From a virus: a stretch of 26,140 nucleotides of DNA. Of the stretch, positions 3,775 to 26,140 are shown piece after piece (within the stretch, counting starts at the first letter, position 1; every line of letters starts with the position of its first letter). The DNA lies in the IMG/VR virus record IMGVR_UViG_3300030105_002356, positions 1-26,140 of that record. One strand, 5' to 3'. The position numbers were made by a program, and so were the translations under genes. The notes under the pieces are model-generated. The model ran no database searches. It was not told where the DNA came from and saw only the letters and a list, made by a program, of their open reading frames with translations.

Positions 3775-6700
3775 CTAAAGTCTTTTTGGTTTTTTCTTCT
3801 TCTTTCCTCTCCTTCCCCGTTTTTTCTTCTTAGTGCCAGCAATACCAGCAGCTAATTTAAATTCTTTTATTGCTCTTTGAATTTCTAAAGCTGACAGCAA
3901 ACCACCCTTTTGTTCTTCAGCATCACCAACTGCCTGATTAGCATTTCTCGGCTTAAACTTTCTTCTACCGAATTGAACTTTTTTACGTTTCTTACGCCTT
4001 TTTGGCTTGAATTTAGCAACCGTTCCTTCTCCTGTATCCAATGAAGATTCTCCTGGAGTTTTCTTTACCAGCCTTGTCGGTGAGGTAAGAGTAATCTCAA
4101 TTGGAGGACCACCATCAATTGTCGTCAAAGCAGTATTTTTAACACCAGCAAAATAGGAACGAACCCTAGCTTCAGTATCTTCTAATAGGTAATCTGTATC
4201 AGTATTAAAGAAAGATGAAGAGAAAGAATTGCCGATTGAGGCACTTAGTGGCGTAGTATAAAACTTCATTTCTTTTGCGTTATTATTTCTAGTAACAGAC
4301 TCAGAAATTACTGGCTGAAGAGCTTCAAAGTATTTAAAATCTCCAAAGGTAATACTTGCAGTAGCATAAAGTTTATCCGGCTGATTTAATCTTTGCCATA
4401 AAGATAATTCATAACTTTCATCTAAAAATTGTGAAGATGATCCTTCATAGGTGGGAACTGATCCCGTAATATTATAAACAGAAGATCCAGATTCATAGCT
4501 ATACATATCTATTCTTCCATCATATGAATTGAAATTTGTTATTGTATAGTTATTGTCATGATTGTATGAACTTGACACTTTAATTAAATCTATTCCAATA
4601 TCTATAGATGAAGTATAATAAAAGTTTTCAAATTTAGGAGCTTTACCTATTACTACCTTTGATCTTTCAAATAAATTTGGTTCTACCAAAATACCCAAAT
4701 TTGCTTTAGCTCTAGCAGGAATCATTTTTCTTATCTGACCAAATAAAGATTGGTCGTAAAATTTTATAAGTCTGATATAATCCCAAAAGTTATTTGGTGA
4801 TTTATACTTTTTCCAATAATTATCGGCAGCATTTTTTAAACCACGATATTCTAATTCTTGTAAATCTCTAGGATCACCTAAGAAATTATCAAAATTTAAA
4901 TCAGCTACGGATTCTATTATATCTGTATTAATTACATCAGTTGGAGCAAAGAACACACCTACTTTATTAGAATCGTTAGGAGCAGTATCATATGCACTTA
5001 GTGTAGCTCTGTGTTTGGAGTTTAAATTAAATCCGGTTTTTAAAGGATTTGGTTCAATCCTTATTTTATTAGTAGTTCTTCTCAAAGCGCCGATGCTTGG
5101 AACATTACTTTTTGTCTCATCAACAACACTACTGAAAAAGTTTCCTGTAAATCCGTTATGAGATCCTGAATAAGCATTTGTTGAATTCGCACTAACATCT
5201 CTGATACCATCTGTATCTGTGCTTAAATCATTATTATCGTCAAAGGAATATCTTAAAACTAAATTTTCATATGATGAAGATAATGAGTTTCCATTATAAG
5301 CTTTTGGATTTCCTATGTGATTTCTAAAAGAGCCGGTATTTAATACCTCTGTCCAATGTCTATACTCCATTAATGATCCACTAAATTGATCTCCTACTAA
5401 AGCGTTATCTTCGCTTCCACCAATGAAAATATCACCATCGGTTGCCCAATTTTGATTGTAAGAAGCTGAAGAAGCTATATCGGTTACTAATGTAGACTTA
5501 GAATATAAATTTATTTTACTTCTACTAGCATCATACTTACTTAAATGTAATTCAAATGATTGAGATACATTTCTGTTATCACTTCCAGAAGTTCTACGAA
5601 CCATAACGGAAAAGAAATCATTGTCATATACAGGAAAATTAGAAGATGATATTTCCTTCAATCCATCAGAACCGCTTATCTGAAAAGCCACATACCCATA
5701 ATTATCAATTGAGTTATTTTCTTTTAATTTTATGAAAAAACTAGAAGATAAATTAGGACTTGCCGATTTCTTTTCAACTAGTATCTGATTTGAGCCAGTT
5801 GGCGTTCTAAATCTGAATTCAATCGTATCCGGCTTTCTTCCCGATGAGGAGTCATCAACCCAAGTGGTTTTAACAAATTGACCACCTCTAAAATCTAATG
5901 ACTTTGTAAACTTTCTTCCTATTTCAAATTGAGGAGTAGCGTTATCCGGCAAATCAGGTCCGCCATATTCCTTAACCCTTAAAATAGTTGATGGTATACC
6001 ATATGCACTTATCAAACCCTTAATAGCTCTAACACTTCCTTTATTTTTTAAGAAGTATGGCATATTGTTAACAATCCTACTCCAAATTTCTCTTGAAGTA
6101 TCACGCTCTGGCTGAGATGAATGAGCTGAAAAAGAGGAGCCTGTTACTTCTTTACCTAATGCATATTTAGCAAGAGAAATTGTATCTTTGCCGTCATTTA
6201 ATTGCCATCCCAATGATTTAGCAACACTCATAAATAAATCTTTAGACATACCTTCCGACAGTTTCTCTCTTCTATCGTGTACATCCCCCATAGCCTTAAT
6301 GTAAATCCATATATTATCAAAATGATGAGCTACCATATTCACTAAATCTACATAAGTTTGATTATTAGTATCAAATTTTATATGCTGTGGTATAATATTA
6401 CTTAATCTATTAAAACTGTCCTCATCATATAAAGAAGCACTCGAATTTTGTATAGTATACCAATTCTTAGCTTTAGATGATGTAGTATGTGCTAAAACAT
6501 ATGCATCGCCAACTTTTCCTGTTCCGGAAGTTTTAGGCCAAGAGTTATCAAAAAATTCACCTAATGAGCTTGTGACATATGATGAAGATTGAAAATACAT
6601 ATATTTTTCAAATCCATCAAAATTATTTTTTAACTCGTCAATAGAAGATACAGCCACTTTAACATCAGCGTTTGAACCGCTGATACCATTGTAGGATGCG

Positions 6701-9700
6701 CTTGTTGCTACATAACCTTCGATTTGATTTAATTTGTATTTAAAATTATTAATCCTTTTTGATACTGAGCTAAAGTTTATAAAATTTCTAAAATTACTGT
6801 AATCTACATTTATTTCTACGCTGTCCATACTCTGACTTAAAAATTCATCTCTCAGCAAACCAGATACAGTTGAATCCTCACTTAAAATTTCAGTTTGACT
6901 TACATAATCAGTAGTTCTTCTCTGTATAGGACTTTCAACATTCATCATATCTGGAGATTTTAAAACTACATCGCCAACATCAGTATCAACAAAGTCTATA
7001 ATCTCAATATCTTCTTCAACTACATCGCCCATTTCTTTTACAACGACTACTTCGTCTAATCTTTCGATGTCAGTTGGTAATGGCTCATATAACTTATACA
7101 CGACTGAATATGGATAGGGCATTGTTACAAAATCTTTTTTAAAATTAGTAGTTAAAAACATCCTATTTCCAAATTTTAGATAGGTTCTCATATCATATGG
7201 ATTATATACAAGATAAGAAACTGAAAAGTTAGGAAAATTTACAGGATTACTATCATCTTCATAATTAGTAACATTATCATTTGTTTGAATTAATTCACTG
7301 CCAACATTATTCCAATGTTTATTTACAGTTATCGTTGATCCCTCTCCTTGAATTCCAGTTATAGTAGCTTCGTAGTCAGCATATATTGGTTGCTCTGTTT
7401 GTTGTGCATTTAACGTAAAGTCTATGAATAAATTATCAACCCACGTTATTCCATATGAGTTATCTATTCCAAGTCCTTTGCTTGTATCCCAAGTATTATC
7501 ACCTCTTACTTCTAGAAAAAATTCTGCTGTTAAAAACCAATCATTTGGAACATCTACACTAAGTTCTAAGGTGCTCCACCCACCAGCATTTAATGTAAAT
7601 GCCTCCACTCCAATTTTATTATAAATGTATGCAATTGCGGCATCTTGTGAGTTCCAAATAGCAGCTTGACCATCCCATACCCATTGTTCTGCTGGACTTA
7701 AAGTTCCATCCTTAGATGGATTTAAATCATAGCTAAATTCACTACTTCCATCATCATATAAGGCTAATGAATCGTAATTATCAGCGCCTGGATTTCTACT
7801 ACCAAATATTATCTCCTCGCCTTCATCTCCTTTAATGCCGGCATTGTAAAATACGTCCTGTACAGATAATGTTTTATCTACACCATCAGAAGTGCTACTT
7901 TTTGAAAAATATACTTGATCTCCTACTATACCAATATAGTTTGAACTAAATCCTGAATTCTTAGCAAATGCAACCTCATATTCTGCTGGAATATCTGAAG
8001 AGAATCCGTCTGCGAACGGTTTTGGATCTTCAGAAAAGAAACTATCTTCATCCGATGCAGCCTCATAGTAATCTCCATCACCATCATCCATTGCATAATA
8101 TAATCCCGTGCCTGATATTGTAAAGTAATGTCTAAAATCAGAACTATTCTTTTTAAACCAAGTCTCGAACTTACCTTCGCCCGCATTTAATCTATCATTA
8201 AAGCCTTCGTCAAGATCTAACCAAGGGACTACGCCCCTATTTTGCTCGTTTATATCATCAAAGTTATCTTTAAATTTTCTTGCAATAAAAATTCTGTTCT
8301 GATCTTCAGCACCAGTTCCATTACTATAAAATATTATAAAACGTTCTGACCAAACACTATTACTACTGCCGGGTTTCCTAACTCTAGAAACACTCTGTAT
8401 AAATCCATATCTAAAAATGTCATCATATATAGAAACTGTAGATGATTGTCCATCGACTATTTGACTTATACTTACATTTCTAACTACGGGAAAGTAATCT
8501 TCAAATTTATGCAATACTAATTTATTTGAATTTACTGTAAATTCTGTCTGTTTAACTTCCCAAATTAAATCATCCTTAAATAATATCGCACCGTCACCAT
8601 CTGTTGTTCCTGTTTGCCAACCTGCGTTTTCACCTTGCCGCACTACCCTTTGGTATGCAGCAGGAGTTGTAAATCCCGGCGCTTGATATGGGTGACCATT
8701 TACAACATTTTCATCGGAATACTGAACACTACTGACAGTTCCATCAGGAGGACTGGGACTATTTGCTGAGGCTTTTACTACCCATTGAGAACCGTTCCAT
8801 AGCCAATCACCATCTTCGCTTAATATTCCTTTCTTCCAATACGGATCTTTTGCGAGATTTGGAGCAAAAATCCATTTCTTTGGATTTGTTAATATTGGTG
8901 GTATTATTTGAATAATTATCCAAGCTCCTGCTCCACCAAAGTCAGCCGTAGTTTGACCTATTTGTCCTTCGAAGAATGATACACCAAAATGTGTCATGAG
9001 TTGTGCTTCTCTTTTTGGTGGCTTATCTTCTATATTCGATGCATTAGAATTATTATTTGCTACATAGCCTTCAGGTATATTTGTCGGCTTTATTTCCGCA
9101 GGTGGTGGCGCAAACGGATTGAAATATCCAGCAGGCGGTGAATCTGGTTCGGATTCAATAAGTCTTTCAGTAGGATATTTAAAATCAACACCAACACCCT
9201 TTCCAGCCACACTGCTCTTTATATCTAACCTAATATTAATCGTATCGCCTGCAGCAGCTCCGAAATTAATTAATGATGGCATAGTTTGTCCAATCATCAT
9301 AAGTCGGTGTCCGCTTGCACCACCCCAAGCTTCAAAGTCTTGATATAAATTATTTTGATCTATAAATTTTATACAATTCCCACCAGAGTTTCCTTCTCCT
9401 TTTACAACTTTTGCATGATAACCAATAGCACCGGTTCCGACATGAGGTTCGCCATAGTTGAAATATCCAGTTGTCCAATCAACTAATTTTACAGCATCGC
9501 TATGTAAACTACCATCCCACCCAGCACTTATTATCGTAGGCGCGCCTGTAGTCGTATCTATTTCTATTTCTTCTAATTCAGCATTTTTTATTATATTTAA
9601 ATCTGTGCGGACTTGTTGAGTTACATATCCGGTTAAGTAAGCGTTAGGTAACTTAATAGTTCCACCCTTCATATTATCCGTAAATATGAAACCACCTTCC

Positions 9701-10449
9701 TCTACGTTAATTTCTATAATATTTGTAGCATCATATTCCATTTTTGTTTCCGGTGGATTTGCTGCACCTGCGCCTGGTCCGGGAGGTTGAATAACTAAAT
9801 TTCCTTTAAATGCGATTCCGCTTGATATATTTTCTATCTTTACAGCTTCTTGCAGTTGTAAAAAATCTGTTTGGTAGTTGAATGGACCCAATGGGCTATC
9901 TCCAATATTTTTAGCTGATAGCCTAATTTCTTTTCTTGTTGGGGAAATTGTTTCAATTTTGTATTTATAATCTGATATTAATAATTGTTCAGCTCCTGCG
10001 GGATTTTTTTCATACTCAGCTTGACTCTTATTAAATATTTTACCTAAATCATTTATATATATATTTTCTGCATTTGTACCGATTGAAAATATTTCATTTT
10101 CAAACCCTCTCTTTGTTCTTAGCAAAACAGGATCTTCTCTTCCAGCTAAATTTCTTATAAATCTATATCTAATTTTAAATCTACCGGTTTCATAACCAAA
10201 TAATTTTAAATGAGAAGCTGGGTTTATTTTTATAAAATCGTCATCTATTCCTACAATAGCATCATACTTTAATAAATCTTTATATTCTATTAAATTGCCA
10301 GCGTCATCTAATAATTCTACAAGAACATGATCTCTGTCTGCATTACCACCCTCGCCCCAATATCCATTTTCATAAGGCTTGTCCCCAATCTTTTTGGTAA
10401 TACCACGAATTAGTCGCTGTTTATCTACATCATTTAATTGACTTGACAT
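3775..10449 (-). CDS. giant baseplate/fibre protein with tail-protein-I-like and LamG-like regions
   Basis: A 2224-residue open frame, the largest gene here. Residues 1-100 form a conserved charged start. The region 250-1100 looks like a chain of beta-sandwich, carbohydrate-binding-type modules, with two W-x-W-N/D-G-x-x-x-W segments (near 565 and 930). Residues about 1220-1500 contain a segment like P2 tail protein I: N-M-P-Y-F-L-K-N-K-G-S-V-R-A-I-K-G-L near 1460-1480, then a glycine-rich turn. A concanavalin/LamG-like sandwich follows at about 1505-1720. The last 80 residues are extremely Lys/Arg-rich. It follows gp6, as protein I follows J in P2 and gp7 follows gp6 in T4, so it may fill the gp7 position. 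It starts at a TAATG overlap with the 101-aa gene, with GGGAG upstream. Confidence 0.75.
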   Translation of the reverse strand: MSSQLNDVDKQRLIRGITKKIGDKPYENGYWGEGGNADRDHVLVELLDDAGNLIEYKDLLKYDAIVGIDDDFIKINPASHLKLFGYETGRFKIRYRFIRNLAGREDPVLLRTKRGFENEIFSIGTNAENIYINDLGKIFNKSQAEYEKNPAGAEQLLISDYKYKIETISPTRKEIRLSAKNIGDSPLGPFNYQTDFLQLQEAVKIENISSGIAFKGNLVIQPPGPGAGAANPPETKMEYDATNIIEINVEEGGFIFTDNMKGGTIKLPNAYLTGYVTQQVRTDLNIIKNAELEEIEIDTTTGAPTIISAGWDGSLHSDAVKLVDWTTGYFNYGEPHVGTGAIGYHAKVVKGEGNSGGNCIKFIDQNNLYQDFEAWGGASGHRLMMIGQTMPSLINFGAAAGDTINIRLDIKSSVAGKGVGVDFKYPTERLIESEPDSPPAGYFNPFAPPPAEIKPTNIPEGYVANNNSNASNIEDKPPKREAQLMTHFGVSFFEGQIGQTTADFGGAGAWIIIQIIPPILTNPKKWIFAPNLAKDPYWKKGILSEDGDWLWNGSQWVVKASANSPSPPDGTVSSVQYSDENVVNGHPYQAPGFTTPAAYQRVVRQGENAGWQTGTTDGDGAILFKDDLIWEVKQTEFTVNSNKLVLHKFEDYFPVVRNVSISQIVDGQSSTVSIYDDIFRYGFIQSVSRVRKPGSSNSVWSERFIIFYSNGTGAEDQNRIFIARKFKDNFDDINEQNRGVVPWLDLDEGFNDRLNAGEGKFETWFKKNSSDFRHYFTISGTGLYYAMDDGDGDYYEAASDEDSFFSEDPKPFADGFSSDIPAEYEVAFAKNSGFSSNYIGIVGDQVYFSKSSTSDGVDKTLSVQDVFYNAGIKGDEGEEIIFGSRNPGADNYDSLALYDDGSSEFSYDLNPSKDGTLSPAEQWVWDGQAAIWNSQDAAIAYIYNKIGVEAFTLNAGGWSTLELSVDVPNDWFLTAEFFLEVRGDNTWDTSKGLGIDNSYGITWVDNLFIDFTLNAQQTEQPIYADYEATITGIQGEGSTITVNKHWNNVGSELIQTNDNVTNYEDDSNPVNFPNFSVSYLVYNPYDMRTYLKFGNRMFLTTNFKKDFVTMPYPYSVVYKLYEPLPTDIERLDEVVVVKEMGDVVEEDIEIIDFVDTDVGDVVLKSPDMMNVESPIQRRTTDYVSQTEILSEDSTVSGLLRDEFLSQSMDSVEINVDYSNFRNFINFSSVSKRINNFKYKLNQIEGYVATSASYNGISGSNADVKVAVSSIDELKNNFDGFEKYMYFQSSSYVTSSLGEFFDNSWPKTSGTGKVGDAYVLAHTTSSKAKNWYTIQNSSASLYDEDSFNRLSNIIPQHIKFDTNNQTYVDLVNMVAHHFDNIWIYIKAMGDVHDRREKLSEGMSKDLFMSVAKSLGWQLNDGKDTISLAKYALGKEVTGSSFSAHSSQPERDTSREIWSRIVNNMPYFLKNKGSVRAIKGLISAYGIPSTILRVKEYGGPDLPDNATPQFEIGRKFTKSLDFRGGQFVKTTWVDDSSSGRKPDTIEFRFRTPTGSNQILVEKKSASPNLSSSFFIKLKENNSIDNYGYVAFQISGSDGLKEISSSNFPVYDNDFFSVMVRRTSGSDNRNVSQSFELHLSKYDASRSKINLYSKSTLVTDIASSASYNQNWATDGDIFIGGSEDNALVGDQFSGSLMEYRHWTEVLNTGSFRNHIGNPKAYNGNSLSSSYENLVLRYSFDDNNDLSTDTDGIRDVSANSTNAYSGSHNGFTGNFFSSVVDETKSNVPSIGALRRTTNKIRIEPNPLKTGFNLNSKHRATLSAYDTAPNDSNKVGVFFAPTDVINTDIIESVADLNFDNFLGDPRDLQELEYRGLKNAADNYWKKYKSPNNFWDYIRLIKFYDQSLFGQIRKMIPARAKANLGILVEPNLFERSKVVIGKAPKFENFYYTSSIDIGIDLIKVSSSYNHDNNYTITNFNSYDGRIDMYSYESGSSVYNITGSVPTYEGSSSQFLDESYELSLWQRLNQPDKLYATASITFGDFKYFEALQPVISESVTRNNNAKEMKFYTTPLSASIGNSFSSSFFNTDTDYLLEDTEARVRSYFAGVKNTALTTIDGGPPIEITLTSPTRLVKKTPGESSLDTGEGTVAKFKPKRRKKRKKVQFGRRKFKPRNANQAVGDAEEQKGGLLSALEIQRAIKEFKLAAGIAGTKKKKRGRRGKKKKKPKRL

Positions 10450-19292: not shown

Positions 19293-20666
19293 TTATCTAA
19301 CCTCGTATCTGTTTTTTGTGAATTTAATTGTTGGTTCATTTCTTAATCTATTGCGATAGCCACTAAAAGATATTCTCACACCCCATCCAAGATGTTCTAA
19401 TATTTCTTTTTTAGTAGTTGATTTCTTTTTGTGAATAAAATCTACTATCTTTTTATATGAATCGGTATCTTCCTTCAAAATATGTAAGTTATCTATTGCT
19501 CTATTAAACATACTATTAAACTGATTGATAGCAGTTGACCATTTACTTTGTTTAAATTTTCTCATTGATTTATCCGACCACCTACTTCTTAAATCTGAAA
19601 TATCCATCAAATCTTGTATGTTAGCATTTAGCTCATCAGCATCTTTATAGTATATACCAGCATAATCTGCTAATTCGTGATAGTAGCTGTCATTTGAAAA
19701 ATGATATGGAACACCAACCGACATGCCATCAGTAGCGGATATAGCCCACCCAGCATATTTTTGCTTTGCACAAACTCCGGTAAGGCATGAAGATAATTTT
19801 GAAAAATAACCTTTTCTATCGTATTTATCATTGGTGATATATTCCCTATCCATAGTTTCTGCTAAAGGCACCCATACTTCAAAGTCTTGTCTCTTCTCCC
19901 ACAACTTATCCATTTGTTTTAAAAACCAAGGATAATTTTTATATGCATGGGGTCTGTGATTAAAGACAATAATATTTTTATCTGTAGTTTGTTTTTCATA
20001 ATCTGGTGTTTCCCAGCCAAGATATTGTGGCTTTAGTATCTTATCTAACTTAGAAACTACATCATCATTAAAATATTCCTTAGCATTCTTCAATACCAAA
20101 TCTTTTTGAGCTTGTGTATTAATACCACATTCAATCATTTCTAAAAGACCAACGATATTATAAGATAATCCAGGTTTGTAGTGATAGTTTGTTATTTCTT
20201 TAAACTCTGTCCAATGTGTATACCCACCGATTATAGTAGGAGATATATTAGTAGTATTTTCTAATAAACACTTTAGGTTTCCTGTATGTTCTGGCAGATG
20301 AGAATATACAATATCATAGTCGTTATCTTTCCATTTAATAGCATTAAAGACTTCTCTGAAAGGGAAATCCATCCTCATTGAGTTTGGATAATTTCGATAC
20401 GCATCAAAATATTTTTGGCCATTAAACTCACGAATTACAAGCTGCTCAGAATTTTTAAAATTTAAACTATTAACAAAGGCAGGAGTTATAATTGAAAAAT
20501 ACAAATCATCACGTATTTTATTTAATTCTTTAATAATATTGCCTATAACAACAACGTAAGAATCTTTTTCTAAATCTTTTAAATAAGTTATATTTGGATA
20601 TACTAATACTTTATATTTATATTCCTTATCATCGCACTTACTATTTGAAAATTTGTATATGCTCAT
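19293..20666 (-). CDS. GT-B-like glycosyltransferase with C-terminal winged-helix-like domain
   Basis: A 457-residue protein starting at the ATG at 20666, which overlaps the previous stop as ATGA with AGGA upstream; a reading from 20708 would lie inside the preceding gene. Two Rossmann-like halves are suggested: the C-terminal half begins at I-I-V-F-N-H-R-P-H-A-Y-K-N-Y-P (about 232-246) and has D-G-M-S-V-G-V-P-Y (313-321), which sits where GT-B enzymes bind the nucleotide sugar. The last 55 residues (F-I-H-K-K-K-S-T-T-K-K-E-I-L-E-H-L-G-W-G, then Y-R-N-R-L-R) look like a winged helix with a basic recognition helix. That hints at DNA as acceptor, as for T4 glucosyltransferases. Neither acceptor nor sugar is proven. 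Confidence 0.75.
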   Translation of the reverse strand: MSIYKFSNSKCDDKEYKYKVLVYPNITYLKDLEKDSYVVVIGNIIKELNKIRDDLYFSIITPAFVNSLNFKNSEQLVIREFNGQKYFDAYRNYPNSMRMDFPFREVFNAIKWKDNDYDIVYSHLPEHTGNLKCLLENTTNISPTIIGGYTHWTEFKEITNYHYKPGLSYNIVGLLEMIECGINTQAQKDLVLKNAKEYFNDDVVSKLDKILKPQYLGWETPDYEKQTTDKNIIVFNHRPHAYKNYPWFLKQMDKLWEKRQDFEVWVPLAETMDREYITNDKYDRKGYFSKLSSCLTGVCAKQKYAGWAISATDGMSVGVPYHFSNDSYYHELADYAGIYYKDADELNANIQDLMDISDLRSRWSDKSMRKFKQSKWSTAINQFNSMFNRAIDNLHILKEDTDSYKKIVDFIHKKKSTTKKEILEHLGWGVRISFSGYRNRLRNEPTIKFTKNRYEVR

Positions 20667-21856
20667 CTTCCTACTTCTCCAAGATATTGTTTTTTTGTTT
20701 CTTCCCAAGTCATTCCAACTAAATCACCATAGAATAACTTTTCAGGTTTAAGTCTGTTCTCATCAAATAACTTGCTATACCTTCGTATAGCCTTTGGCTT
20801 CCACCATTTCATAACGTAATCACTATCATCGTTATACTTTTTCTTCATCTTTAAATCTTTCTCTTCTATCTCGCCACGTAAGAACTCTTTACCATTCTCA
20901 TAGATGTCAGCAAAAAAGATACCACGTTTGAATCCATGCATATAATCAGAACCTTTGACTCCAACTGCTTTGAATATCATATTAATTGTTTTTTGTTTTA
21001 CGCCTGTTGGAGGACCTGCTACACCTTCTTTCTGTGTAGTCTGTCTCAAATACTCTTCTGATTGGTTTTCTTTTAACCATTCGTGCCACGTCTCATAAAT
21101 TGCGTCATCAGGCTTTAATGCAATCCTACCTTTAGAAGAGCCTAATGTTTTCCAAAGCGGAATAGAATTATACATAGAATGAATACCATATAAAGAGGTG
21201 GTGGATAAGCCAACCAATGTCTGACCATATAGTTTCTTCCAAGCATCTCTAACTACTGATGTTGTAACCAAAGCGGCTACTAACTTACCACCTAAGAAAT
21301 TATAACCCAATGGCTGAGCGCAACATATAGTTGTGCCGATTGATGTATGCTTAAGCTTACCATCTACGAACTTATTATCTTTAGTCCAACCGATAAAGCT
21401 GTCTCTAGCTCCTAATGATGTTACATCTGAACCTAAGCATACAACACCTAATAGTTTGTTGGTTACTTTATCTTTAATAAAGAACTTAATGTTTCTGCCA
21501 GGATTAGCAGTAAACTCCATAGTATGAATTAACCTGCGAACTAATGTCCAAGTCTCATTATCCTTAGCATTACCTTGTTCTAACATTTCAACGTAAGGCT
21601 CTAATGCTTCTATTTCTTTTATGGTTTGTTCTTTATTGTTAATATCAGATGGCATCCAAATAGAACTGTTAATTCTTTTGAACTTAGATGCTTTTTGTGT
21701 CATAGAATAAACATCGGCATTAAATTCTAGCCACTTCTTATATAATGTTTGTTCTTGTACCGGCATTGTTTTTAGTAAATTGAGGTTATCTACAAAAGCT
21801 TTGCGCTCTTTCTCAAAATCGAATTTTGGCTCGTCAAAGAAATCTCCGAATCCCAT
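20663..21856 (-). CDS. DUF4338/DruA-resembling protein, possible Mom-like DNA-modification enzyme
   Basis: A 397-residue protein. Residues about 120-260 follow the pattern I associate with DUF4338 (the DruA component of Druantia) and similar phage proteins: K-L-L-G-V-V-C-L, then G-A-R-D-S-F-I-G-W at 149-157, L-G-G-K-L-V-A-A-L at 188-196, K-K-L-Y-G-Q near 207, T-T-S-L-Y-G at 219-224, and L-G-S-S-K-G-R at 238-244. The alternating hydrophobic strands also recall acyltransferase-like folds such as phage Mu Mom. N- and C-terminal extensions are charged and helical. It heads the operon with the glycosyltransferase and HD gene. The ribosome site is weak (GAGAG). The biochemical activity is not known from the sequence. 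Confidence 0.55.
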   Translation of the reverse strand: MGFGDFFDEPKFDFEKERKAFVDNLNLLKTMPVQEQTLYKKWLEFNADVYSMTQKASKFKRINSSIWMPSDINNKEQTIKEIEALEPYVEMLEQGNAKDNETWTLVRRLIHTMEFTANPGRNIKFFIKDKVTNKLLGVVCLGSDVTSLGARDSFIGWTKDNKFVDGKLKHTSIGTTICCAQPLGYNFLGGKLVAALVTTSVVRDAWKKLYGQTLVGLSTTSLYGIHSMYNSIPLWKTLGSSKGRIALKPDDAIYETWHEWLKENQSEEYLRQTTQKEGVAGPPTGVKQKTINMIFKAVGVKGSDYMHGFKRGIFFADIYENGKEFLRGEIEEKDLKMKKKYNDDSDYVMKWWKPKAIRRYSKLFDENRLKPEKLFYGDLVGMTWEETKKQYLGEVGR

Positions 21857-21914
21857 AGTGTTACTCTCTTTATTTAATATTCAATAGTTAAATAGCCTAG
21901 CTGGCCAATAGTTG

Positions 21915-21986
21915 AGCGAGTGGTTGGAGTCGAACCAACATCTCCACCTTGGAAAGGTAGTGTGTTTCCTATAACACTTCACTCGC
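21915..21986 (-). tRNA. tRNA-Gly (anticodon UCC)
   Basis: The minus strand folds as a full cloverleaf. The acceptor GCGAGTG pairs with CACTCGC, and the D arm is GTGTT/AACAC with GG in its loop. The anticodon stem is CTACC/GGTGG around loop TTTCCAA, giving anticodon TCC at 21951-21953. The T arm is GTTGG-TTCGACT-CCAAC, and the discriminator base is U. CCA is not encoded. It would read GGA (and GGG) glycine codons. It lies between the ParB-like and DruA-like genes, and a candidate promoter ends about six bases before its 5' end. Confidence 0.95.
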
Positions 21987-23021: not shown

Positions 23022-24791
23022 TTAAGCCGCCTTATTATCTTCATCTAACTTCGCCATATAAGCCTCACCACTCATAGTCAATTTCTGACGATTATGATAA
23101 GCAGTAGTAATTTTGAGATTACTATATACGGTTAAACCACCTTTATTTATGCCCCAAGCGCGAGGGATATCATGATCACCAACGGCATCTTCTATTGGAA
23201 TAGGTTTGCCTGTATAATCATCAACTCCTCCGTTTTCTTCCCATCTTTGTTCTTTTTGTTTATTTGTAAAATTAGAACGATCGATTTTAACAAATCCCCA
23301 ATCTGGATCGAGAGCTATTTCGGATGTAACAATATCAACAGCAGTTTTAATCACATTAGAATTAAAAGAACCCCATAGTGATTTGAAAGCACCTAACATA
23401 GTAGTTCCATTTGACTGATAACGAGAGTTTCCATTTTCATCCCTCTCATAAACCGATGGGAGATTCCACTTGTCATATACATTAGTTATCTTTTCAAAAT
23501 ACGAATCCCAATCAACAGCGCCTGATTTCATAGATTCCTTATAATCTTTAGCAAAAAGAATTACAAATAACATAAAATTATGTTTTAAGTAAGCTCTTGC
23601 ATTTGATACGCTTCTTGTTTCTTTACCTTTGCTATTGATTTTAACAGTTTTATATTTTAAAACCCATTGAGAAAATTTCAAACCCATGTCTAATAAGGAG
23701 TTAATATCTTTTTCTATATTAGGCATTGAGTTTGTTGATAACTCATCTTTAAAATTCCATCCAAGTTGATGACCGCTTTGAACTGAGGTTTCTTCATAGA
23801 AGTTACTTACCACACTTGCGGTTACACCACCTTTCCAGTTATCGGTAACTACCATATATACCAACATAGCCAACCATTGATCTCCCTGCATACGACCAAT
23901 ACCTAAACTATGAAAGTATTTCCAAACTACCTCTTCTTTCGGTGTTCCTACATTCAACTTATCTCTAAGAAATAACTCATGAAACATTCTAATCGAATCT
24001 TCATCTTTCCATTCTCCATTTCCATTACGAGAAGTAAGTCTGACGAACTCAGCCAATTGACTACGAATTGCGTTACTTTTTTCTTGAACATTCAAATCAT
24101 TTGTATTGTTAAGAATCTTAATGAACAAATTTGATATGTCATTATCTTTAAAGTAATCGTAGAAAGTAGTTGCTATCCCATAATTTTTTATTTCATCAGT
24201 AGCATCACCTCCCATCATAAGCAGTTTAGTCCAATTCATACCTGCGTATTTACCAAAAGATTTATCTTTTTTTAGGTTAGGTAAAGTAAATTCATTATTC
24301 ATAAATTCAAATACAGCCGTAATTCGTTGTTGACCATCAGCAATCTCATATCCCATAACATCACCTTTTTCATTACGAACAACTCTGATATGAATAGGTG
24401 GTATCTTAACAGTTTTATCAAGTAAAATTGTTTTTATGATTTCGCATTTCCATTTATAGTCTGCAACTTTTTCACGTTGATATGAACGAGGCTGTGTATC
24501 TAAAGTTGAATTGTTACTTTCATCATATAAGAATTTTATAGTAACTTTAACTCCATCCTTAGAATCTTTTTTACCATCAAAAACATTCACAAGAAACTGA
24601 TTAATCTCTTCTTTATTTGAGAGAACATTCGTTACATAAAGTCCATTCTTTTTGACTAAACGCTGTATTTTCTTTTGTAATTCGCGTTTTTCTTTATAGT
24701 TTAAGGTTATGTTGTCTAATTTACTAAGAGATTGCATTATAGTGGAAGCCGTATCTCGAATTGCTTCTGTTGTTTGGCTTAATTTAGCCAT
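23022..24791 (-). CDS. DUF262 (GmrSD-like) protein with C-terminal HNH nuclease motif
   Basis: A 589-residue protein. After a coiled N-terminus, residues 100-165 carry the DUF262/ParB-type core: R-S-Y-Q-R at 102-106 and A-D-G-Q-Q-R-I-T-A-V at 151-160, a nucleotide-binding motif. The C-terminus is an HNH module: Y-T-G-K (526-529), D-H-D-I-P-R (539-544), N558, H566-N567 and K570, with the first Cys pair of many HNH proteins missing. DUF262 plus a nuclease domain is the architecture of single-chain GmrSD, a restriction enzyme that cuts glucosylated hydroxymethylcytosine DNA. In a phage it could exclude rival phages, cut host DNA or spread itself. AGGAG precedes the ATG. Confidence 0.8.
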   Translation of the reverse strand: MAKLSQTTEAIRDTASTIMQSLSKLDNITLNYKEKRELQKKIQRLVKKNGLYVTNVLSNKEEINQFLVNVFDGKKDSKDGVKVTIKFLYDESNNSTLDTQPRSYQREKVADYKWKCEIIKTILLDKTVKIPPIHIRVVRNEKGDVMGYEIADGQQRITAVFEFMNNEFTLPNLKKDKSFGKYAGMNWTKLLMMGGDATDEIKNYGIATTFYDYFKDNDISNLFIKILNNTNDLNVQEKSNAIRSQLAEFVRLTSRNGNGEWKDEDSIRMFHELFLRDKLNVGTPKEEVVWKYFHSLGIGRMQGDQWLAMLVYMVVTDNWKGGVTASVVSNFYEETSVQSGHQLGWNFKDELSTNSMPNIEKDINSLLDMGLKFSQWVLKYKTVKINSKGKETRSVSNARAYLKHNFMLFVILFAKDYKESMKSGAVDWDSYFEKITNVYDKWNLPSVYERDENGNSRYQSNGTTMLGAFKSLWGSFNSNVIKTAVDIVTSEIALDPDWGFVKIDRSNFTNKQKEQRWEENGGVDDYTGKPIPIEDAVGDHDIPRAWGINKGGLTVYSNLKITTAYHNRQKLTMSGEAYMAKLDEDNKAA

Positions 24792-24957: not shown

Positions 24958-25461
24958 TTAAAAATCTCCTGGTGCTACTTGGAAAGTATTAAGTCCTAAG
25001 TCTCTCCACATCTTCACAACCTTATCTCTATCATCAACAACAAGAAAAACATCATTGATATCAACAAAGGTATCTAACATATGTTTCTTTAAGATTTCAT
25101 CAGGCATAAATCTCATATCTTGAGTGGCTGGATTTCCATCGGCGATTTTATCTCCTCGCTTTAAGAACTTGTCGGGTCTCATAACTAATTTGCGAAATGG
25201 AACTCTGTATTTTGATAACCAACTTTTAGTAGTGTGAAACGATCTATCATTTCTTCCACTAAAGATTACAATATCAAATCCATCTTCAGCAAATAACTGA
25301 GCCATCTTAATAACAGGCTCATTAGGTTCATCTAATTTTATATTTTCAGCATCAAAGAATACATCCCAATCTATTTTTCCATTAGGTTTTAAAGACTTAT
25401 CCCTTCTAACTTCAATGTTAGCTAGTGTTCCATCTAAATCAAATATAACTGTCTTTTTCAT
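24958..25461 (-). CDS. HAD-family phosphatase resembling the T4 Pnkp phosphatase domain
   Basis: A 167-residue protein with all HAD motifs: F-D-L-D-G-T-L-A near residue 7, S-G-R-N at about 67-70, a lysine in the K-x-x-x-R-P-D-K region near 88-95, and V-V-D-D-R-D-K-V-V-K-M-W at about 141-152. The closing W-R-D-L-G pattern matches the 3'-phosphatase domain of T4 polynucleotide kinase and phage 5'-nucleotidase-like proteins. No kinase domain is present. Likely substrates are DNA or RNA 3'-phosphates or deoxynucleotides. The start at 25461 is preferred over an ATG at 25479: AAAGGGG lies just before it, and the predicted promoter would start transcription at about 25478, past the upstream ATG. Confidence 0.82.
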   Translation of the reverse strand: MKKTVIFDLDGTLANIEVRRDKSLKPNGKIDWDVFFDAENIKLDEPNEPVIKMAQLFAEDGFDIVIFSGRNDRSFHTTKSWLSKYRVPFRKLVMRPDKFLKRGDKIADGNPATQDMRFMPDEILKKHMLDTFVDINDVFLVVDDRDKVVKMWRDLGLNTFQVAPGDF

Positions 25462-25484
25462 TTTTTCCCCTTTTGTCATATAAG

Positions 25485-25516: not shown

Positions 25517-25921
25517 TTATTTTTGAGGATCTACTAAAAACTTTTTTATAAATGTAGCAACGGCATCAATCTGTGTAGTAACCAAAGCCGCTGATATCGG
25601 AAAGGAAGGCGATGGTGCGCCAGCTACTGCTATTGATTGTGGTATGGTTGCAGTTATTCCTGCAGAGATAACCGTAAGTTGCGTAAAAACTGCAGCAGTT
25701 ATGTTAAGTCCTATTAGTGAAGGTGGAGCAACGGCTCCTGATAATGATAACGGAGTTTGTATTGCTGTAATAAAACCATTAGTAGCTACTATATTTGCAA
25801 GAACAGGTGCTATAGCAGCTGCATAACCAGCAGCTGCAGCTTCTGCTGTTTTAGAAAGTTCAACAGATAACTTCATAGCTTTTTCAGCAGCTATAGCTGG
25901 CGGTAATAGTAGGCTTGGCAT
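25517..25921 (-). CDS. Ala/Ile-rich hydrophobic protein of unknown function
   Basis: A 134-residue protein beginning M-P-S-L-L-L-P-P-A-I-A-A-E. The ATG at 25921 is chosen because AAGGAAG lies just before it; a longer frame from 25969 would run back into the tmRNA gene. It is rich in Ala, Ile, Thr, Pro and Ser. It has no Cys, His or Trp and few charged residues except at both ends (E-K-A-M-K near 13-17, F-I-K-K-F-L near the end). There are no clear catalytic motifs or a single long membrane helix. It could be a self-assembling virion protein or membrane-active. It follows the tmRNA gene by 23 bases, so it may share its transcript. Confidence 0.6.
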   Translation of the reverse strand: MPSLLLPPAIAAEKAMKLSVELSKTAEAAAAGYAAAIAPVLANIVATNGFITAIQTPLSLSGAVAPPSLIGLNITAAVFTQLTVISAGITATIPQSIAVAGAPSPSFPISAALVTTQIDAVATFIKKFLVDPQK

Positions 25922-25944
25922 ATACTCTTCCTTATTTAAGTTAG

Positions 25945-26140
25945 TGGAGCTGGCGGGAGTTGAACCCACGTCTTGTCTGCTTTCTCAACTGAGTCATTCA
26001 CAGCTTAGTTTAGTTTCTATAAGTAGCAACTAACAAACAACTTGTTACTTTACTCAGAGTAACCAACTGGTAGTTTCTTTAATCTCTAACTTCCATCCTA
26101 ACTAAAGAGAGTTTGTCTAACTTCTTTTATGACCGAGTGT
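25945..26140 (-). ncRNA. ssrA: tmRNA (ssrA), 3' part, running off the window
   Basis: The minus strand ends with the tRNA-like domain of tmRNA. A T arm reads GTGGG-TTCAACT-CCCGC, followed by the 3' acceptor strand CAGCTCC and discriminator A at 25945, the near-invariant bacterial tmRNA ending. Upstream, A-A-C-T-A-A-G-C-TGTGAATG matches the conserved block before the 3' half of helix 2. Further upstream, hairpins can form with loop pairing: TCTC/GAGA with TAGTT pairing to AACTA near 26110-26060, and GTTACT/AGTAAC near 26060-26040. The terminal CCA is not encoded; CTA stands there instead. The 5' half, with the resume codon and tag frame, lies beyond the edge, so the tag cannot be read. No separate acceptor-piece arrangement is seen, so a one-piece gene is more likely. 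Confidence 0.85.

Follow-up and report, generated by a model that had tools for sequence, protein, structure and literature searches.

Ribosome rescue by transfer-messenger RNA (tmRNA) is known from the bacterial one-piece molecule (RF00023, ssrA), which combines a tRNA-like domain, including the G3-U70 pair, the T arm and paired ends, with pseudoknot-type stems, an A at position -4 of the resume codon and a tag with a C-terminal alanine. In Escherichia coli, the resume codon lies approximately 12 bases past pseudoknot 1 and is set by A86, four bases ahead of it (PMC2481249), and the tags reported to date span 8-35 residues (PMC8012679). Genes for tmRNA are also carried by viruses; they are found in 402 of 18,146 phage genomes, with the T4-like phages Melnitz and Marzo among the examples (PMC9004378, PMC8928761). 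The Methylophilales phage Melnitz and the pelagiphages are, like the phages described here, marine T4-like phages with a tmRNA of their own; however, the tmRNA of Melnitz is permuted, consists of two pieces and has a glutamine riboswitch, whereas the present family is one-piece (PMC9004378). The Stenotrophomonas T4-like phage Marzo and the mycobacteriophages Wildcat and Bxz1 likewise bear tmRNA genes (PMC8928761, PMC7474061, PMC4131195), and that of Marzo resembles the gene of its host (PMC8928761).

Here we report on a tmRNA gene at the end of a window of 26,140 bases, which is the whole of an IMG/VR record and therefore ends where the contig ends. The family to which it belongs shares all of the above features of the bacterial one-piece tmRNA, but in these phages the tag is 34-43 codons long and has a conserved N-terminal module, its C-terminus is YAYA or YAYAA instead of LAA, and CCA is not encoded. 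Phage tmRNAs, those of T4-like phages included, are already known; it is the long conserved tag that is new, and our literature search returned no paper on tags of such length or sequence. An earlier note on this DNA had regarded a tmRNA in a T4-like phage as uncommon; the T4-type carrier is borne out by the baseplate genes of the window, but in view of the phage genomes listed above the combination is not exotic.

The 3' half of a one-piece tmRNA at the contig end

The last 199 bases of the window are the 3' half of a real one-piece tmRNA and not a remnant. The gene lies on the minus strand and is cut by the contig end, with the 5' side of the RNA at 26140 and A73 at 25945, where the earlier note had placed it. 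The piece matches positions 178-374 of the Rfam covariance model RF00023 with 37.8 bits (E 1.3e-13), a score below the gathering score of 47; the search marks the match as 5'-truncated, half of the RNA being absent. The T arm (GTGGG-TTCAACT-CCCGC), the acceptor strand and the upstream block with its ACTAAGC sequence, from which a tmRNA had originally been recognised, are all present (Table 1), as is an encoded end that reads CTA and not CCA. ARAGORN and a gathering-threshold Rfam scan of the window miss the gene and call only a tRNA-Gly because the 5' end of the RNA is cut off. The 199 bases on their own fold no better than shuffled sequences (z 1.46), as is to be expected for half of a pseudoknotted RNA. 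A two-piece permuted architecture (RF04321) was rejected; the window reaches 18.3 bits with this model, whose gathering score is 47, and the relatives are one-piece.

Close to the cut, the window retains the 3' strand of the stem that follows the tag. In the alignment this stem is backed by compensatory changes in the relatives (columns 252-284), and a strand of the GTTAGAC type is found in tmRNAs with long tags and absent from those with short ones.

Table 1 Features of the tmRNA locus in the window (all on the minus strand)
Feature	Position	Strand	Basis
One-piece tmRNA gene, 3' part	25942..26140	-	RF00023 E 1.3e-13, 5'-truncated; blastn to complete phage tmRNAs
Stem after tag, 3' strand GTTAGAC	26115..26121	-	Alignment; 5' strand beyond contig
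Conserved ACTAAGCTGTGAATGAC block	25993..26009	-	Pairs with RNA 5' part in complete relatives (alignment, consensus fold)
T arm	25969-25965 GTGGG, loop 25964-25958, 25957-25953 CCCGC	-	Sequence (T arm and acceptor together 25945..25972)
Acceptor 3' strand CAGCTCC	25952-25946, U70 25948, A73 25945	-	Sequence; G3-U70 in 17/17 aligned relatives
CTA replacing encoded CCA	25942..25944	-	Sequence
134-aa ORF directly downstream of tmRNA	25517..25921	-	Homologues between tmRNA and PNKP gene in relatives
PNKP-type HAD phosphatase gene	24958..25479	-	PF25109 E 1.6e-28; in synteny with tmRNA
tRNA-Gly (UCC)	21914..21986	-	ARAGORN, RF00005

Complete relatives and their conserved structure

The PNKP-type phosphatase has 156 relatives in IMG/VR, 80 of whose loci were retrieved. 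ARAGORN calls complete tmRNAs in many of these loci, and RF00023 scores above its cut-off in 21 of 50 PNKP-bearing records searched in their entirety, the complete relatives reaching 60-106 bits. The covariance-model and ARAGORN checks proposed for the window thus yield an RF00023 match in the window itself and complete genes called by both programs in its relatives, where the GGGGCTG acceptor strand predicted for the missing 5' half is present and paired. The distance between tmRNA and PNKP gene is approximately 460 bases in three relatives (L009, L020 and L033) and 463 in the window, with a homologue of the 134-aa ORF in between. This ORF has no Pfam or PHROG match, and searches for related loci with it and with the GmrSD-like protein of the window as queries returned none.

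In blastn comparisons the window piece matches complete relative tmRNAs over its full length, at best with 76-84% identity and E values down to 2e-52. Two genes, L269 and L234, are closer still; they are 92% identical to the 199 bases, and the first 149 bases after the tag stem (window 25992-26140) are identical, followed by a diverged P2 and T-arm region. On account of this pattern the tmRNA genes appear to be mosaic, with exchange inside the gene; the neighbouring genes of L269 and L234 also differ from those of the window. The exact pattern of the window T arm and acceptor recurs in no other viral contig searched, blastn finds no match to the window piece among isolate phages, and these match the complete relatives only in a short stretch at the 3' end of the tRNA-like domain. 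Another contig that ends inside its tmRNA (L155) has a tag ending in IGDYQPTYAYAA, together with a DruA protein and a baseplate protein that are 84% and 68% identical to those of the window. One genome that already has a tmRNA carries a second (L156, G078:C9) with the tag ANNNLHFEQRLAA, possibly on a contaminant contig.

An alignment of 17 complete long-class genes reveals compensatory double changes in 28 of 65 consensus pairs. The 7-bp acceptor stem is intact and itself contains such changes, and the alanine determinant G3-U70 is invariant (17/17). Among 53 readable 3' ends, CAA (42) is far more common than CTA (6), CCA (2), CGA (2) and CAT (1); CCA is left unencoded in nearly all, and therefore the CCA-adding enzyme of the host is needed. 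SmpB (PF01668) was found in none of 30 phage records, whose length reaches 205 kb, and the host protein would consequently be needed as well. In several copies the RNA starts a few bases past the apparent end of the upstream gene, for which reason trimming from a longer transcript by RNase P is likely.

A long tag frame under protein-level selection

The tag frame was expected just past the window and to end in small hydrophobic residues; in the relatives it lies at the predicted place and ends in small or aromatic residues. In all 18 long-class genes found without selection for the tag, a GGC resume codon with an A at -4 opens a frame of 34-42 codons. Over codons 1-15 of these genes the differences fall on the first, second and third codon positions in a ratio of 202/121/635, and synonymous codon differences account for 372 of 750 in the tag frame, as opposed to 53 of 700 and 179 of 709 when the frame is shifted. 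Scanning IMG/VR with a pattern for the tag region returned 117 stretches, which together with the earlier loci provide 87 unique coding sequences of 34-43 codons (76 of them with at least 36). Since the pattern fixes some of the N-terminal codon bases, conservation of the N-terminus was judged from the 18 unselected genes; the A at -4 (87/87), the stop codons (TAA 79, TAG 7, TGA 1) and the lengths lie outside the pattern. The resume codon is mostly 11-13 nt past PK1. The tags are laid out as G[DE]xSLxGLx[IV]DWHLA, followed by a variable linker and then QPTYAYA(A); the last residue is alanine in 86 of 87, the C-termini being YAA (39), AYA (29), ANA (5) and a few others, and the C-terminal motif is YAYA, once YAFA. 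With the RNA-borne alanine added to 34-43 codons, these tags reach or exceed the upper limit of the lengths reported.

ARAGORN calls shorter tags of approximately 10-22 residues (e.g. GDYQPSYSYAA), and it might be argued that this is an ordinary phage tmRNA in which the conserved stretch before the called start is RNA structure only. A hairpin, GGCGA...TCGCT, indeed overlaps the proposed resume codon and is kept there, and a short class of tmRNA genes with 344-351 bases in related phages (L087, L091, L093 and L098) truly has tags of 9-11 residues, namely GTQFNYAYA, GNTANYAYA and GTQANLTYAYA. However, upstream of the ARAGORN start substitutions are mainly in third positions and the peptide is kept, the A at -4 and the spacing from PK1 favour the GGC start, and the starts called by ARAGORN differ among homologous long-class genes; we regard the calls for this class as wrong and the short tag as unlikely. 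Resumption at UAGCY|GAG, with tags some 20 residues in length, was likewise dropped because frame and peptide conservation run further upstream and the GGC start fits throughout, whereas the A at -4 is inconstant at this alternative. The short class shares the same type of GGC start, and a long-class tag accordingly resembles a short one that has some 25-30 additional codons after the resume codon.

No known protein is recognisable as the source of the tag; searches of 50,697 phage records, Pfam, the PDB and the retrieved contigs with the peptide gave no match, and AlphaFold returned no confident model (mean pLDDT 61.7). Other phage tags in the public annotations of blastn matches are short, e.g. 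ANSKNASAYALAA, DNSNVAFALAA and AADVAADYAAVGA. The ssrA tags of Mollicutes that end in NYAFA, e.g. in Mesoplasma florum, are also longer than the E. coli tag and share an aromatic residue in the C-terminal motif (YAFA, here YAYA), but they are bacterial and recognised by Lon (PMC9382460). The chromosomal tmRNAs of the 'bacterium TMED198' phylum are one-piece, usually leave CCA unencoded and have tags rich in tyrosine and alanine (ADYGYAAAA, ADNYGMAYA, ANNGQIAYA); these tags, however, are 9-10 residues long and without the long module, and the acceptor is mostly GGGGGCG.

The window record stops approximately 20 bases short of the tag, which lies with the 5' half beyond the contig. L269 and L234 both encode GDNSLEGLNIDWHMAEYDVPALPISRKADVQSTYAYSA and both end in CTA. 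On the strength of the long-class type of the post-tag stem and of the 149 bases identical to these two genes, the best inference is that the window copy has a long-class tag with GDNSLEGLNIDWHMAEYDVPALPISRKADVQSTYAYSA as its nearest match; recombination could nevertheless have given it another 5' half, as the P2 and T-arm region differs from that of L269 and L234.

The phage group, its host and the proposed role of the tmRNA

The T4-type baseplate genes of the window comprise gp25 (PF04965) and a gp6/Baseplate_J-type gene (PHROG baseplate wedge), and the nearest isolates are the Microcystis phage Mel-JY01 and the Flavobacterium phages immuto. Homologues of window genes occur in the retrieved flanks of 91 of 116 long-tag loci, and the long tag therefore belongs to this phage group. 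The window further encodes a homologue of Druantia DruA (20663-21856, minus strand; PF14236, E 8e-26), with relatives of 60-85% identity in 11 related loci, a protein with a GmrSD/DUF262-like N-terminal domain (23022-24791, minus strand; PF03235, 30.3 bits, below cut-off), of which L028 has a 78% identical copy, and a protein of 2224 amino acids without a PHROG match (3775-10449, minus strand). The relatives of the latter, in Microcystis and Flavobacterium phages and in one uncultured phage, are no more than partial (26-32% identity).

Two leads point to the TMED198 phylum as a possible host, both of which could be binning or assembly artefacts. The phage contig NHIV01000037.1 (L113), with tmRNA, tRNAs, DruA and PNKP, is binned in the species-representative MAG 'bacterium TMED198', and a phage-like PNKP gene 71-73% identical to that of the window is surrounded by bacterial metabolic genes in another genome of the phylum (L153, 7294-7881, minus strand), an apparent case of gene exchange between phage and bacterium. 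Of 245 genomes of the phylum, one contains the long-tag pattern, and there it lies on the phage contig itself. Far-T4 phages have been linked to marine Bacteroidetes (PMC7198788).

The locus holds a tmRNA with conserved pairing, conserved gene neighbours and, in its relatives, a conserved translated frame, and we infer that the window copy is expressed, processed and active in trans-translation. We consider it to be a functional one-piece phage ssrA, truncated by the assembly only, that would perform trans-translation with a tag of 34-43 residues, and give this reading a probability of roughly 0.78. The gene has the orientation of all the main phage genes of the window, and its RNA would be trimmed at the 5' end by host RNase P, completed with CCA by a host enzyme and charged with alanine via G3-U70 by the host AlaRS. 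Host SmpB and EF-Tu would then join it to rescue ribosomes stalled during infection, and resumption at GGC, four bases past the conserved A, would append alanine and the 34-43 residue tag, whose C-terminal QPTYAYA(A) is degron-like. Most likely, ribosomes would be kept free while host mRNA is destroyed, and the tagged fragments would pass to a protease via a two-part signal. Standard trans-translation is the best-supported reading of the sequences, since all of the required RNA elements are conserved and the host would supply the remaining components. A need for ribosome rescue during infection is plausible, because T4 infection leads to degradation of the tRNAs of the host but spares its SsrA (PMC9697503), and because no lytic gene of phage Wildcat is expressed more highly than its tmRNA (PMC7474061).

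It is much less probable that the RNA is a decoy, which occupies SmpB or AlaRS and thereby inhibits trans-translation in the host. There is a precedent in mycobacteriophage DS6A, which has a molecule with the tRNA-like domain only, and a molecule similar to it is a strong inhibitor of tmRNA (PMC4131195). A decoy, however, would have no need of the mRNA-like domain, which is kept here with an open frame under protein-level selection. Less credible still is a remnant, either an attachment site or a degraded piece of host ssrA: prophages commonly integrate at the 3' ends of tmRNA genes and the window holds a 3' half only, but the gene is cut where the contig ends, intact genes share 149 bases with the window without a difference and the relatives carry complete genes at the same place without an integrase (PF00589) in any of the 21 tmRNA-bearing records, so that for the family as a whole this reading, including the ssrA attachment site of a temperate phage, is already refuted.

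Returning to trans-translation with a long tag, ribosome release alone cannot explain the conserved N-terminal module. The E. coli tag is read both by an adaptor and by ClpXP. By analogy, the explanation we prefer is that the phage tag may constitute a two-part signal for degradation or routing. Its N-terminal module would bind a specific partner, such as an adaptor of the host or a protein of the phage, and a protease would be engaged by the YAYA(A) end, such that proteins rescued during infection would be routed differently from those bearing the short host tag; we put this forward tentatively, with somewhat less than even confidence. That tag ends can switch the protease is known from the NYAFA tags of Mollicutes (PMC9382460).

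For annotation, the consequence is that standard tmRNA tools mis-start such tags, and other long tags may have been overlooked. The tag described here is under strong protein-level selection and exceeds the tags of the possible host group, which have 9-10 residues, three- to fourfold in length. Were freed ribosomes all that the phage required, conservation of the tag sequence would be unnecessary, and the purpose of a phage tmRNA is thereby made testable; the long tag suggests that these phages do more than copy the ribosome-rescue system of their hosts.
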